Below are positions 33,117 to 63,991 of a DNA stretch of 64,000 bases, in pieces (position 1 is the first letter of the stretch; every line of letters starts with the position of its first letter). The stretch is from positions 1-64,000 of the IMG/VR virus record IMGVR_UViG_3300042554_001257. The stretch is one strand, 5' to 3'. Under the pieces are notes generated by a model. The model was given only the letters and a program-made list of their open reading frames with translations, was not told the origin of the DNA and made no database searches. Both the position numbers and the translations under genes were made by a program. This DNA comes from a virus.

Positions 33117-33166
33117 TTTTTTAAAAGAGTAGTAAGACCATCAGGGAAATGGTGGTGATACTATTC

Positions 33167-33187
33167 CCCAGTCACCCTCAGACTGGG
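33167..33187 (-). promoter_or_regulatory. Hairpin in the psbA 5' leader
   Basis: CCCAGTC-TGAGGGT-GACTGGG, a perfect 7-bp stem in the ~160-nt leader, 50 nt before the start codon. No clear Shine-Dalgarno sequence precedes psbA, so leader structure may control translation. A second pairing (CACCC/GGGTG) lies around 33206-33231. Confidence 0.45.
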
Positions 33188-33278
33188 TATGAGAGACGTA
33201 ATTTATACACCCATAGGTCTCGGTTAACGGGTGTTCGCAATGTTAAGAATTGTTAGAGATCCGTAACATTTGTTTACC

Positions 33279-52204: not shown

Positions 52205-52276
52205 ATTAGGTCTTTCATGCACGCCACCAATTCTTTGACTGGAAATTGGAAACCAGGCGGGAGTTATAAACCCCAT
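52190..52276 (-). CDS. Small ORF (28 aa), possible -1 frame of a frameshifted gene
   Basis: ATG 52274-52276 to TAA 52190-52192. Begins MGFITPAWFPISSQRI and ends with a basic tail. Its start overlaps the last codons of the 13-codon ORF at 52264-52305. At the junction the sequence reads G GGT TTA TAA in the frame of that ORF, a canonical X-XXY-YYZ slippery heptamer followed by a stop, so the two may form one ~38-aa product by -1 frameshifting. Evidence is sequence pattern only. Confidence 0.35.
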   Translation of the reverse strand: MGFITPAWFPISSQRIGGVHERPNGRVA

Positions 52277-52305
52277 CCGCACCAGTCGGCATATTTAACG
52301 TCCAT
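52264..52305 (-). CDS. Mini-ORF (13 aa) ending at a slippery site
   Basis: ATG 52303-52305, product MDVKYADWCGWGL. The Trp/Cys-rich sequence is unusual and does not look random. See the 28-aa ORF entry for the proposed -1 frameshift. Confidence 0.3.
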   Translation of the reverse strand: MDVKYADWCGWGL

Positions 52306-52324
52306 CCGACGAGGACAATTAAAT

Positions 52325-61173: not shown

Positions 61174-61225
61174 GTGGGGATTTACCCAGCCTCAGAGTTT
61201 CCTCTTCACAGGCACGGAACCCCAC
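61174..61225 (-). ncRNA. Structured spacer RNA a (candidate)
   Basis: Minus strand: GTGGGG/CCCCAC closing stem, inner GCCT/AGGC, and AGAG-GAAA-CTCT, three nested helices with a GAAA tetraloop. Not a tRNA (no T-loop). Confidence 0.35.
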
Positions 61226-61251
61226 GCACTTCACTTCACACGGACTTGTAA

Positions 61252-61280
61252 AGTATATGACATAATGATCATTATGTCAA
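61252..61280 (-). promoter_or_regulatory. Promoter of tRNA-Gly with a 22-bp palindrome in the spacer
   Basis: -35 TTGACA (61275-61280), 17 nt, -10 TATACT (61252-61257). Positions 61258-61279 are a perfect 22-bp palindrome (half-site TGACATAATGA) covering the spacer and most of the -35 box. Confidence 0.75.
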
Positions 61281-61281
61281 G

Positions 61282-61354
61282 AGCCCCCGACAAGACTTGA
61301 ACTTGCGACAACCGCTTTACAAAAGCGGTGCTCTACCAGCTGAGCTACAAGGGC
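61282..61354 (-). tRNA. tRNA-Thr (UGU)
   Basis: Acceptor GCCCTTG/CGGGGGC, anticodon loop TTTGTAA (TGT), T-loop TTCAAGT. Two G-U pairs in the acceptor stem. Confidence 0.9.
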
Positions 61355-61380
61355 GAATGGGTATCGAGTGCCCGACACCC

Positions 61381-61483
61381 GCAGAAGACACTTTCTGCGA
61401 TTTTCACTGCATTAGAGGGCAGTGATAAAAGAAAACACCAAACCTTATTTTTCCTGTTCTCAGGAAGGCACCCAAATGGGGTG
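61381..61483 (-). ncRNA. String of hairpins in tRNA spacer b (candidate)
   Basis: Four consecutive perfect hairpins: GCAGAA/TTCTGC, CACTGC/GCAGTG, TTCCTG/CAGGAA and CACCC/GGGTG. An open frame (61404-61550, start MSDSFKLKTLDKLW) overlaps it; I favour RNA structure. Confidence 0.35.
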
Positions 61484-61565
61484 GGAGACCTTGCAAGGGT
61501 TTATACCTCCAAAGTTTGTCCAGCGTTTTCAATTTGAAAGAATCGGACATTTCCAATCCTTTCAA

Positions 61566-61638
61566 CTGGGGCGGCAGGGATCGAACCTGCGACCTAGATG
61601 TTAACAGCATCCCGCTACTACCGCTGAGCTACACCCCA
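61566..61638 (-). tRNA. tRNA-Asn (GUU)
   Basis: Acceptor TGGGGTG/CGCCCCA, anticodon loop CTGTTAA (GTT), T-loop TTCGATC. Confidence 0.92.
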
Positions 61639-61658
61639 ATATTTGTTTTTATGTGTAA

Positions 61659-61701
61659 GGGAAAGGAGAGCTCTTGGACGGAACCGCAGGATCACTTTCC
61701 C
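61659..61701 (-). ncRNA. Structured spacer RNA c (candidate)
   Basis: 43 nt enclosed by GGGAAAG/CTTTCCC. Confidence 0.25.
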
Positions 61702-61703
61702 AG

Positions 61704-61774
61704 TGGAGAATAGCAGAATCGAACTGCTAATAAGTGCTTGCAAAGCACCCGTTATACCGTTTAACTAATTCCCC
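61704..61774 (-). tRNA. tRNA-Ala (UGC)
   Basis: Acceptor GGGGAAT/ATTCTCC, anticodon loop TTTGCAA (TGC), T-loop TTCGATT. Confidence 0.92.
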
Positions 61775-61781
61775 AAATTGG

Positions 61782-61853
61782 AGGCGGGGGGTGGAGTTGA
61801 ACCACCTACCTGAAGCTTATGAGACTTCTGTGCAACCGTTACACTTCCCCACG
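61782..61853 (-). tRNA. tRNA-Met (CAU)
   Basis: Anticodon loop CTCATAA (CAT), T-loop TTCAACT. Positions 1 and 72 are C and C, unpaired, an initiator-like feature, but the three G-C pairs of initiators are missing from the anticodon stem. The 5' end may differ by a base. A second CAU tRNA is at 62404. Confidence 0.85.
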
Positions 61854-61861
61854 ATGATGGA

Positions 61862-61902
61862 TTGAGTGTGATACATCTCATAAGGATGTAACAGGGACTC
61901 AA
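61862..61902 (-). ncRNA. Structured spacer RNA d (candidate)
   Basis: TTGAGT/ACTCAA closing stem with inner TACATC/GATGTA hairpin. Confidence 0.3.
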
Positions 61903-61917
61903 CCTCCAACAATTTAT

Positions 61918-61946
61918 ATAGTAACAAACTTTTGCAAGTTTGTCAA
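61918..61946 (-). promoter_or_regulatory. Promoter of tRNA-Met with inverted repeat in the spacer
   Basis: -35 TTGACA (61941-61946), 17 nt, -10 TACTAT (61918-61923). The spacer holds the 8-bp inverted repeat ACAAACTT-GCAA-AAGTTTGT (61924-61943). Confidence 0.75.
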
Positions 61947-61947
61947 G

Positions 61948-62021
61948 CGTCCTTTGAGAGATTCGAACTCCCGACACATAGGTTCGTAGCCTACTGCTCT
62001 ATTCCACTGAGCTAAAAGGAC
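61948..62021 (-). tRNA. tRNA-Arg (ACG)
   Basis: Acceptor GTCCTTT/AAAGGAC, anticodon loop CTACGAA (ACG), T-loop TTCGAAT. A34 would need deamination to inosine by the host. Confidence 0.9.
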
Positions 62022-62024
62022 AGG

Positions 62025-62096
62025 CGAAGGGTGAGGGATTTGAACCCCCATCGCAAGGTTTTGGAGACCTGCATCTTACCATTAGACCAACCCAAC
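62025..62096 (-). tRNA. tRNA-Trp (CCA), acceptor stem partly unpaired
   Basis: Anticodon loop CTCCAAA (CCA), T-loop TTCAAAT. The acceptor GTTGGGT/ACCCTTC has T-T mismatches at 2:71 and 3:70. Confidence 0.75.
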
Positions 62097-62100
62097 AAGG

Positions 62101-62173
62101 TGTCCGTGAGAGGATTCGAACCTCCAACAAATAGATCCTTAGTCTATTGCCTCTTCCATTGGGCTACACGGAC
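62101..62173 (-). tRNA. tRNA with AAG anticodon (Leu-type anticodon in a class I body)
   Basis: Acceptor GTCCGTG/CACGGAC, anticodon stem ATAGA/TCTAT with loop CTAAGGA (AAG), variable loop TTGTT (5 nt), T-loop TTCGAAT. Leu tRNAs normally have a long variable arm; none here. It may be a tRNA with altered identity. Confidence 0.7.
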
Positions 62174-62176
62174 TGG

Positions 62177-62247
62177 TTGAGAAACTAGGACTCGAACCTA
62201 GATAAACTCCTTCAAAGGGAGGTGTCCTGCCATTAGACGATTTCTCA
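62177..62247 (-). tRNA. tRNA-Gln (UUG), CCA encoded
   Basis: Acceptor TGAGAAA/TTTCTCA, anticodon loop CTTTGAA (TTG), discriminator A followed by CCA at 62174-62176. Confidence 0.92.
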
Positions 62248-62252
62248 ATAGG

Positions 62253-62328
62253 AGTTCAGGGTGGGATTTGAACCCACGGTGAAAGAAGTTTTGCAGACTT
62301 CTGCATTCGACCACTCTGCCACCTGAAC
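62253..62328 (-). tRNA. tRNA-Cys (GCA)
   Basis: Acceptor GTTCAGG/CCTGAAC, anticodon loop CTGCAAA (GCA), variable loop 6-7 nt, T-loop TTCAAAT. Confidence 0.9.
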
Positions 62329-62330
62329 GG

Positions 62331-62402
62331 GGTGACGTATGGGAATCGAACCCATCTACCCAGATTCACAATCTGGTTCCTTATCCGCTAGGATAACGTC
62401 AC
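62331..62402 (-). tRNA. tRNA-His (GUG)
   Basis: Acceptor GTGACGT/ACGTCAC, anticodon loop TTGTGAA (GTG), discriminator C. The base before position 1 is T, so the usual His G-1 is not encoded. Confidence 0.88.
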
Positions 62403-62403
62403 A

Positions 62404-62477
62404 TAGCAGTAGGTGGATTTGAACCACCGTCCATAGGAATATGAGTCCCGTACTCTACCAGACTGAGCTATACTGCT
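62404..62477 (-). tRNA. tRNA-Met or tRNA-Ile2 (CAU)
   Basis: Acceptor AGCAGTA/TACTGCT, anticodon loop CTCATAT (CAT), T-loop TTCAAAT. CAU could be lysidine-modified and read AUA; the sequence cannot tell. Confidence 0.85.
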
Positions 62478-62481
62478 GAGG

Positions 62482-62564
62482 CGGAAGATGTTGGATTCGA
62501 ACCAACGGAGGTTTTACCCTCACGGTTTAGCAAACCGCTGCATTAACCACTCTGCCAATCTTCC
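62482..62564 (-). tRNA. tRNA-Ser (GCU)
   Basis: Class II: acceptor GGAAGAT/ATCTTCC, anticodon loop TTGCTAA (GCT), long variable arm GAGGGTAAAACCTC, T-loop TTCGAAT. Confidence 0.92.
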
Positions 62565-62572
62565 ATAAAGAA

Positions 62573-62639
62573 GGATAGTCAGTCCTCCTACCTTTATTCT
62601 CCTTGTCGAAATACTTGTCTCTACGGATTGACTAGATCC
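62573..62639 (-). ncRNA. Structured spacer RNA e (candidate)
   Basis: Enclosed by AGTCA/TGACT and GGAT/ATCC with a 2-nt bulge. Confidence 0.25.
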
Positions 62640-62678
62640 TAAAACTTTCTTCCTCAGATGGATTAAGGTTCACCAGAG

Positions 62679-62750
62679 TGGAACCGACAAGATTTGAACT
62701 TGTGACCGCTCGGTTATCAGCCGAGTGCTCTACCACTGAGCTACGGTTCC
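62679..62750 (-). tRNA. tRNA-Ile (GAU)
   Basis: Acceptor GGAACCG/CGGTTCC, anticodon loop CTGATAA (GAT), T-loop TTCAAAT. Confidence 0.93.
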
Positions 62751-62753
62751 AAA

Positions 62754-62839
62754 ACTGGGTGAAAGGTCATTTGCTCTTTGCCCTTTCCATTCCACATTCA
62801 GAAGATTGCGTTTGCAACCACTTTCTTCCTATACCCAGT
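62754..62839 (-). ncRNA. Structured spacer RNA f, branched (candidate)
   Basis: 7-bp closing stem ACTGGGT/ACCCAGT with inner arms GAAGA/TCTTC (capped by TTGC/GCAA) and GGAAAGG/CCTTTC. 86 nt, tRNA-like overall size but no T-loop or anticodon arm. Confidence 0.38.
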
Positions 62840-62862
62840 AAGTTTGAGAGTAAAACTCTCAA

Positions 62863-62936
62863 TGGGAACAATCGGATTTGAACCGATAACACCTTGATCT
62901 TCAATCAAGTGCTCTACCAATTGGAGCTATGTTCCC
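62863..62936 (-). tRNA. tRNA-Phe (GAA)
   Basis: Acceptor GGGAACA/TGTTCCC, anticodon loop TTGAAGA (GAA), T-loop TTCAAAT. A TTGAGAG/CTCTCAA hairpin (62844-62862) follows directly. Confidence 0.93.
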
Positions 62937-62939
62937 AAG

Positions 62940-63011
62940 TCCAGAAGGTTGGATTTGAACCAACGTCCTCACCGCCCCAAACGGTGCCGTCTACCGCTGA
63001 CTTACTCCTGG
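62940..63011 (-). tRNA. tRNA-Pro (UGG), second copy
   Basis: Acceptor CCAGGAG/CTTCTGG, anticodon loop TTTGGGG (TGG), T-loop TTCAAAT. Differs at many positions from the tRNA-Pro at 53786. Confidence 0.88.
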
Positions 63012-63015
63012 ATGG

Positions 63016-63087
63016 TAGTCTCGAAGGGATTTGAACCCTCGTTTTTGCTGTGAAAGAGCAACGTCCTAACCATTAGACGACGAGACC
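63016..63087 (-). tRNA. tRNA-Glu (UUC), CCA encoded
   Basis: Acceptor GGTCTCG/CGAGACT, anticodon loop CTTTCAC (TTC), T-loop TTCAAAT, CCA at 63013-63015. Confidence 0.92.
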
Positions 63088-63091
63088 AGAT

Positions 63092-63183
63092 GGGAGGGGT
63101 ATCCCACACGAAGTTACTTACGGATTACGCTTCGTAGCCTTATGAATCCTGCCATCATCCGATGGTGGTTAGAAATCCCTCCC
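63092..63183 (-). ncRNA. Structured spacer RNA g (candidate)
   Basis: Closed by GGGAGGG/CCCTCCC, with inner hairpins CCATC/GATGG and TACG/CGTA. 92 nt. Confidence 0.33.
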
Positions 63184-63200
63184 CAATTCCAGTTCTTGCT

Positions 63201-63282
63201 ACGTCATTCCTTACCTAACTGGCAACATTCAGGATGACGTGCTACAACCGCCAAGGAGGGACACTCCATCGGCAGCGTAGCA
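63201..63282 (-). ncRNA. Structured spacer RNA h, two adjoining stems (candidate)
   Basis: ACGTCAT/ATGACGT (63201-63240) and TGCTAC/GTAGCA (63240-63282), the latter enclosing GGAG/CTCC. Confidence 0.3.
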
Positions 63283-63527: not shown

Positions 63528-63658
63528 ACATAATATAGGATAAATATTCAGTTGTCTAGGTTCTCGGTGAGGGGTGATCCCTCAACCACTTGATTAGAAT
63601 ACCACCGTTTGGTCTCTGGGGGGAGATTGGTGGACGCTTAGGAAACTGTCACAGGCAA

Positions 63659-63696
63659 CAAAAAAGGGGAGGAAACTTTTGGTTTCTCTCCCCTGT
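63659..63696 (-). terminator. Strong terminator after the 33-aa ORF
   Basis: Minus strand GGGGAGAGAAAC, loop CAAAA, GTTTCCTCCCC, then six T. One bulge in an 11-bp stem. Confidence 0.88.
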
Positions 63697-63720
63697 CTTT
63701 TTGCTTTTATGGATTACATC

Positions 63721-63822
63721 TTACATATGTCTATCCATATCCGCAAACAGGGGAGCACCCTCAATATGCCAATAGCGGCAATCGAGATTACTAAACTGTT
63801 TTGTGGGCATCGGGAAAGACAT
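63721..63822 (-). CDS. Small protein within the tRNA array (33 aa)
   Basis: ATG 63820-63822 to TAA 63721-63723, begins MSFPMPTKQFSNLDCRYWHI and ends 'GAPLFADMDRHM'. It has its own dual promoter upstream and a strong terminator downstream, so it is a complete mini transcription unit. Function unknown. The remaining 63528-63658 holds a GAGGG/CCCTC hairpin and no gene. Confidence 0.55.
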   Translation of the reverse strand: MSFPMPTKQFSNLDCRYWHIEGAPLFADMDRHM

Positions 63823-63843: not shown

Positions 63844-63874
63844 TATTTATAAGACTTTTATTTTAAAAAGTCAA
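63844..63874 (-). promoter_or_regulatory. Dual promoter of the 33-aa ORF: sigma-70 and perfect late
   Basis: -35 TTGACT (63869-63874), 17 nt, -10 TATAAA (63846-63851), which is also part of TATAAATA (63844-63851), the exact T4 late consensus. Confidence 0.75.
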
Positions 63875-63956: not shown

Positions 63957-63991
63957 CCTCATATTATAAGGTATGAGGAGAACCTTGTCAA
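63957..63991 (-). promoter_or_regulatory. Promoter of the tRNA array with inverted repeat over the -10
   Basis: -35 TTGACA (63986-63991), 17 nt, -10 TATAAT (63963-63968). A 7-bp inverted repeat CCTCATA/TATGAGG spans 63957-63978. Confidence 0.82.

Follow-up and report, generated by a model that had tools for sequence, protein, structure and literature searches.

The spacers of a transfer RNA (tRNA) array in a freshwater T4-like cyanophage hold small RNA modules, and the main ones have a conserved secondary structure that is under selection at the RNA level. The array lies on the minus strand, running from 63948 to 61098, in IMG/VR record IMGVR_UViG_3300042554_001257, a virus record of 69.5 kb whose first 64,000 nucleotides (nt) make up the window analyzed here. 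This window carries the PhotoRC-II and wcaG motifs, and T4-like Synechococcus phages are the closest named relatives of its virus. Comparison across relatives divides the spacers into the unrelated small modules M1, D, C, B, B2, A1 and A2; compensatory changes are clear in M1, D, B2, C and A2, few in B and absent from A1. These modules are probably independent non-coding RNA genes that are co-transcribed with the tRNAs and set free by tRNA processing, and we infer their release, their stability and a function in trans.

In transcript order, the window presents A1 and A2 between tRNA-Asp and tRNA-Glu, a closed element between tRNA-Phe and tRNA-Ile, a conserved unstructured stretch between tRNA-Ile and tRNA-Ser, M1 after tRNA-Arg(acg), D between tRNA-Ala and tRNA-Asn, B, a short hairpin and B2 between tRNA-Asn and tRNA-Thr, and C between tRNA-Thr and tRNA-Gly. 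Across relatives, the aligned spacers are mosaics of separate modules that are found whole or not at all, several of them between different tRNA pairs.

Folding and compensatory change in the array spacers

An earlier note, made from the window's letters alone, had held that each spacer longer than about 40 nt is a structured RNA, and had singled out eight intervals. These were folded on the minus strand, which is the coding strand of the array, against 200 dinucleotide shuffles each. The z score was -2 or lower in five of the eight: 61174-61225 (z -2.9), 61381-61483 (z -2.4), 61862-61902 (z -3.8), 62754-62839 (z -2.0) and 63201-63282 (z -5.4). The other three, 61659-61701 (z -0.9), 62573-62639 (z -1.0) and 63092-63183 (z -1.0), fall short by thermodynamics alone. 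Two of these, 61659-61701 and 63092-63183, are nevertheless conserved covarying elements or parts of one, namely module D and a portion of A2; D scores poorly in nested folding because it is small and has a conserved internal loop, and A2 because it is apparently pseudoknotted. The nested stems and GAAA tetraloop described at 61174-61225 were borne out and correspond to module C, whereas three other intervals fold but were wrongly delimited: 61381-61483 runs across parts of both B and B2, 61862-61902 covers only the interior of M1, and 63201-63282 joins A1 to the 5' part of A2.

Loci of relatives, numbered with an L below, were gathered via a downstream porin-type gene and short spacer patterns. 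The IMG/VR loci are partly redundant; identical sequences were dropped and close ones kept. Among 243 non-redundant array spacers of 40-250 nt, the mean z was -3.21 and 75% lay below -2, as against a mean of -0.68 and 14% for 486 random non-array pieces of the same contigs. Folding of the sense (tRNA) strand was better than that of the antisense strand over the 243 spacers (Wilcoxon p 2e-18). The tRNA contexts were taken from ARAGORN, which misses some tRNAs, and the mean z became -3.44 once spacers with a T-loop-like motif, which might be missed tRNAs, were dropped. In the relatives, spacer folding thus reflects selection acting on RNA. The general claim about long spacers therefore stands across relatives, but "each" was too strong, some long-spacer sequence being promoter, unannotated tRNA or micro-reading frame.

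Module M1 (61856-61912, minus strand) is an RNA of about 57 nt with two stacked helices and a conserved internal loop, whose 3' end lies 2 nt upstream of tRNA-Met(CAT). In an alignment of 66 distinct sequences, 99.5% of the cells are paired and two-sided changes occur at 9 of the 15 pairs. These changes fill 75 cells, a count reached in 0 of 500 shuffles, and the signal is lost when partners are shifted by 1-3 columns. Against a tree-aware null, six of the 15 pairs are individually significant. G-U states alternate with Watson-Crick states at most pairs, which argues for an RNA and not for a DNA operator or palindrome. M1 is present in the tRNA arrays of more than 100 contig stretches and in the isolates S-CREM1, S-SRM01, S-RIM8, S-SZBM1 and S-RIM32. 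When whole contigs and isolates were searched, its model gave 36 matches in 32 of 45 viral records, one or two per record, with none in T4 (NC_000866) or S-PM2 in a whole-record search. All M1 matches that were re-checked adjoin tRNAs on the same strand, some of them standing before a lone tRNA-Ala that starts 1 nt downstream. In S-CREM1, M1 occupies 155,716-155,774, ahead of such a lone tRNA-Ala.

Module D (61659-61701, minus strand) is a 43-nt RNA with a covarying closing stem and an invariant asymmetric internal loop (AAGUGAUCCUGCG ... CAAGAGCxCUCCUU). Its 33 distinct sequences have two-sided changes at 6 of 10 pairs (41 cells), four of which are significant against the tree-aware null, and 26 of its 43 columns are invariant. 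With the D model, no record yields more than one copy, and T4 (NC_000866) yields none; in isolate DSL-LC02, the D copy has no annotated tRNA beside it. With M1 and D, compensatory changes in related cyanophages, which the earlier note had named as a check of its claim, were found to be statistically significant.

Module A2 (63089-63240, minus strand) is an RNA of about 150 nt with a stem P1 and a long-range stem P3, of the GGGGAGGGA/UCCCCUCCC type of pairing, that encloses a variable domain. In S-CREM1, too, A2 is located between tRNA-Asp and tRNA-Glu. Two-sided changes were found with RNAalifold at 8 of the 17 modelled pairs, mainly in P3, and the entire P3 is swapped out in several lineages. 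The P1 arms are misaligned by MAFFT, so that P1 was missed by both RNAalifold and the tree-aware test. When stems were extracted singly, P1 proved to have at least seven different stem sequences across lineages, examples being GTCATCC/GGAATGAC, CATTCTTC/GAAGAATG, CATCATC/GATGATG and TCCTTCAC/GTGAAGGA. The P1 loop segment CCAGU is complementary to a downstream ACUGG, and an H-type pseudoknot formed by the two is plausible; covariation does not touch this candidate because both strands are invariant. The A2 pattern gave 15 matches in 84,980 prokaryote species, approximately the estimated chance number, with no tRNA at those 15 loci. A2 is thus not seen in cellular genomes, in a scan that covered the A2 pattern only.

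The neighbouring A1 (63241-63281, minus strand), a 41-nt hairpin, directly abuts tRNA-Asp at its 3' end and has 194 of 195 cells paired in 13 distinct relatives; the z of -5.4 for 63201-63282 covers A1 plus part of A2. It is found alone in L013, L109 and L120. A further module that is absent from the window (GAAGGUAAGGAAAG ... GAUACCGCACCUGCCUUC) occurs in the Asp-Glu spacers of L035, L095, L100 and L117, and also in L029 and L030; in L099, its closing stem is altered yet still paired.

The Asn-Thr spacer holds B and B2. B (61431-61530, minus strand) is an RNA of about 100 nt with inner hairpins, closed by GAAAAY/GUUUUC; 457 of 460 cells are paired in 20 relatives, with two-sided change at 2 of 23 pairs, and its pattern was matched in 42 contig stretches. 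B2 (61359-61398, minus strand) consists of two adjoining hairpins with complementary loops, AGUGUC and GRCACU, a candidate kissing pair whose complementarity is imperfect in several relatives. Its 3' end lies 4 nt upstream of tRNA-Thr, and 30 relatives have two-sided changes at 9 of 15 pairs. In the Thr-Gly spacer, C (61174-61225, minus strand) is a 52-nt three-tier stem with a GAAA loop, 4 nt upstream of tRNA-Gly, with two-sided changes at 5 of 16 pairs in 9 relatives. It is either there in full or missing, giving spacers of about 109 or about 76 nt, and is also located between Ile and Met tRNAs.

Probable small RNA genes within a tRNA operon

None of the 234 distinct sequences in the seven module families lies on the strand opposite the neighbouring tRNAs. 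The next tRNA mostly begins 1-6 nt past the module or past a further module, and there is usually one copy of a module per genome, with each family occurring once or twice. The modules are reshuffled between different tRNA pairs, and a given type of module does not go with a particular tRNA. Taken together, the compensatory evolution, the strand bias, the few copies per genome and the flush placement lead us to read the modules, and thereby the majority of the array's long spacers, as small RNA genes in a tRNA operon.

Maturation of tRNAs by ribonuclease (RNase) P and 3' nucleases is established processing. Since each module abuts tRNA ends on either side, no more than tRNA maturation would be needed to cut it out. 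In the pathway that we propose, several sigma-70-type promoters would drive minus-strand transcription of the array; host RNase P would then cleave where the following tRNA begins, and RNase Z or a different 3' nuclease where the preceding one ends. Each module would come free as a separate RNA of about 45-190 nt, protected by its closed stem, and this RNA may act in trans by binding a host protein or RNA. The existence of separate families with conserved loop cores, present once or twice per genome at shuffled positions, fits a trans-acting RNA better than a cis element.

The opposite assignment, in which the modules are cis-acting elements that assist folding of the polycistronic precursor or its cleavage by RNases P, Z or E, or that insulate the tRNAs from one another, and have no role after excision, draws on the same geometry: modules stand 1-6 nt upstream of tRNAs, solitary tRNA-Ala genes included, and many tRNA 3' ends are directly followed by hairpins. 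However, at least 1073 junctions of 5 nt or less in the same arrays do without a module, module type is independent of tRNA identity, and the invariant internal-loop cores go beyond the needs of an insulating stem. Given the many junctions without modules and the presence of each family only once or twice per genome, we regard a purely cis role as unlikely, and the role of general processing guides for RNases, which the earlier note had entertained, is made less likely by the same counts.

We view as very improbable, and disfavour, the notion that the modules are decayed tRNA genes or functionless selfish inserts with residual foldback. In relatives, tRNA-like or degenerate tRNA sequence is indeed present in a small number of spacers, and presence or absence as shuffled units would suit an insert, but compensatory changes preserve 94-99.5% of pairs, module loops are invariant, and the modules have no match to the tRNA model RF00005, while spacers lacking the T-loop motif remain equally structured. 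Coding potential was considered for M1, A2 and D and rejected, as their indels are not multiples of three; loop indels of 1-2 nt in M1 and D, together with length changes, make coding unlikely. No intrinsic terminator, sought as a GC-rich hairpin plus T run on the minus strand, was found at any module, and Rfam 15, at the gathering score and at E values up to 5, holds no family for the modules, known self-cleaving ribozymes included.

Several points weigh against reading the modules as small RNA genes. The placement of modules flush upstream even of solitary tRNAs is equally explained by a cis role. A1 has no two-sided change among its 13 distinct relatives, and no single pair of A2 reaches significance in the tree-aware test, for which the MAFFT alignment with misaligned P1 was used. 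The test itself is our own re-implementation, in which substitutions are replayed on the tree, and not R-scape; the relatives all come from one viral lineage, the cyanophages, and so are of limited diversity. A covariation scan over all column pairs without a given structure was underpowered.

As a wider and more tentative proposal, to which we give somewhat less than even weight, cyanophage tRNA arrays might be used in general as a platform from which a shuffling set of trans-acting small RNAs is expressed, with host tRNA-maturation enzymes excising the RNAs. If so, no RNA would need a promoter, terminator or processing site of its own, and phages could assemble different sets, possibly against host RNases, ribosomes or defence systems.

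Promoter-like palindromes and other features of the array

Four sense-strand sigma-70-type promoters agree with the consensus at 10 or more of 12 positions, where 0.1 such sites were expected by shuffling. One, TTGACA-17-TATAAT (63963-63991, minus strand), is a 12/12 consensus promoter ahead of the array's first tRNA; another, TAGACA-17-TATTAT (63530-63558, minus strand), stands upstream of tRNA-Lys. The remaining two, TTGACA-17-TATACT (61252-61280, minus strand) directly after tRNA-Thr and TTGACA-17-TACTAT (61918-61946, minus strand) directly after tRNA-Arg(acg), have palindromic 17-nt spacers that use the GACA of the -35 box. For the hairpins at these two places only, we are inclined to prefer a reading at the DNA level, with sigma-70-type promoters and operator-like palindromes that serve internal transcription of the array. 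The TTGACA-17-TATACT/TACTAT/TATAAT hexamers keep constant spacing and the palindrome arms covary, over 37 distinct variants after tRNA-Thr, where pairing is nearly all Watson-Crick (258 Watson-Crick, 4 G-U), and over 30 after tRNA-Arg(acg). In L105, L109 and L066, on the other hand, a hairpin is retained in this position but has no -35 box, and promoters leave M1, A2, B, B2, C and D unexplained. The DNA-level reading coexists with that of the small RNA genes and does not replace it, although some hairpins that the earlier note had taken for RNA (at 61280 and 61946) are promoter palindromes. Such a palindromic spacer is possibly an operator for a phage regulator or a tRNA trailer hairpin, and in read-through RNA the palindromes may fold as trailer hairpins as well.

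A conserved reading frame of 32-34 amino acids (MSFPMPTKQFSNLDCRYWHIEGAPLFADMDRHM), 33 of them in this array, occupies the Arg(tct)-Lys spacer (63720-63822, minus strand) and is also present in S-PM2; it is taken to encode an unannotated cyanophage microprotein. It is preceded by a promoter-like site, TTGACT-17-TATAAA (63846-63874), whose 17-nt spacer is likewise palindromic and takes in part of the -35 box, and is followed by a strong hairpin ending in a T run (63666-63693).

Only tRNA, PhotoRC-II and wcaG pass Rfam models in the window, and the only Rfam match within the spacers is an unannotated tRNA-Met with a CAT anticodon (61782-61853, minus strand; RF00005, 46.4 bits), which lies inside an apparent spacer and was missed by ARAGORN. 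Between B and B2 is a short hairpin, TCACTGCCCTCTAATGCAGTGA (61404-61425, minus strand), that is compensated (CACTGT/ACAGTG) in L013 and L028; at the start of the Asn-Thr spacer of L039, it stands in inverted orientation between unchanged flanks, which points to inversion via short inverted repeats. A fold flush with the 3' end of tRNA-Asn (61535-61564, minus strand) forms another hairpin, whose arms vary compensatorily in relatives.

Between tRNA-Phe and tRNA-Ile lies the closed element of about 86 nt (62754-62839, minus strand; z -2.0) that the earlier note had described as branched and tRNA-sized; its closing stem is kept in one divergent relative (L224) via a G-C to A-U change. The structure claimed at 62573-62639 was not upheld: the full Ile-Ser spacer (62565-62677, minus strand) is conserved in sequence with a z of +1.3, and no compensated helix was seen by eye among six relatives. 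Spacers of L030, L031 and L038 contain a tRNA-like element (CCCAUCG ... CGAUGGG) with an anticodon-like loop, CUGUUAA, and no canonical T-loop, which is possibly a derived tRNA-like RNA.

Relation to RNAs of other phage tRNA clusters

Species 1 and 2 of T4, encoded by rnaC and rnaD, are made in infection, transcribed late and Northern-checked, and have no known function (PMC9697503, PMC3014915). Like the modules, they are non-tRNA RNAs on the tRNA strand of a T4-like tRNA cluster and begin 1-6 nt from the adjoining tRNA or RNA. They differ in that the T4 cluster encodes a pair, 139 and 119 nt long, whereas here about seven families of some 40-150 nt lie between many tRNAs, and in that rnaC has a tRNA T-arm-like sequence, which the modules lack. 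No match was found with nhmmer when profiles of M1, D, A2, B, B2 and C were run over the T4 locus (L408). The suggestion of an expanded version of the T4 species thus holds for the layout, small RNA genes in a tRNA operon, and not for descent; by the searches run, the modules appear analogous to rnaC and rnaD and not homologous with them.

GOLLD and ROOL are likewise structured phage RNAs of unknown function that are often near tRNA islands; they are hundreds of nucleotides long and form nanocages (PMC12286853). The modules are far smaller and are interleaved with individual tRNAs, and the window has no Rfam covariance-model match to GOLLD or ROOL, nor anything relevant at E values up to 5. 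PhotoRC-II and wcaG are also covarying structured RNAs of the same phages, but they are classed as cis-regulatory in Rfam and lie outside the tRNA array, at 33153-33245 and 52213-52318. The paper on S-CREM1, although titled for many non-coding RNA genes, lists tRNAs and four Rfam families only (PMC9964418), and literature searches found no description of the present modules.

Structured RNAs in phage tRNA islands are thus a known kind, whereas for a shuffled set of several compact families placed among individual tRNAs the searches turned up no description. The annotation of phage tRNA arrays would change accordingly, with many long "spacers" becoming genes. The stable RNAs of the T4 tRNA cluster have long been known, and they share with GOLLD and ROOL the lack of an established function; compact covarying families with clear ends in cultivable cyanophages make biogenesis and function testable, and would turn an old T4 curiosity into a set of testable RNA families.

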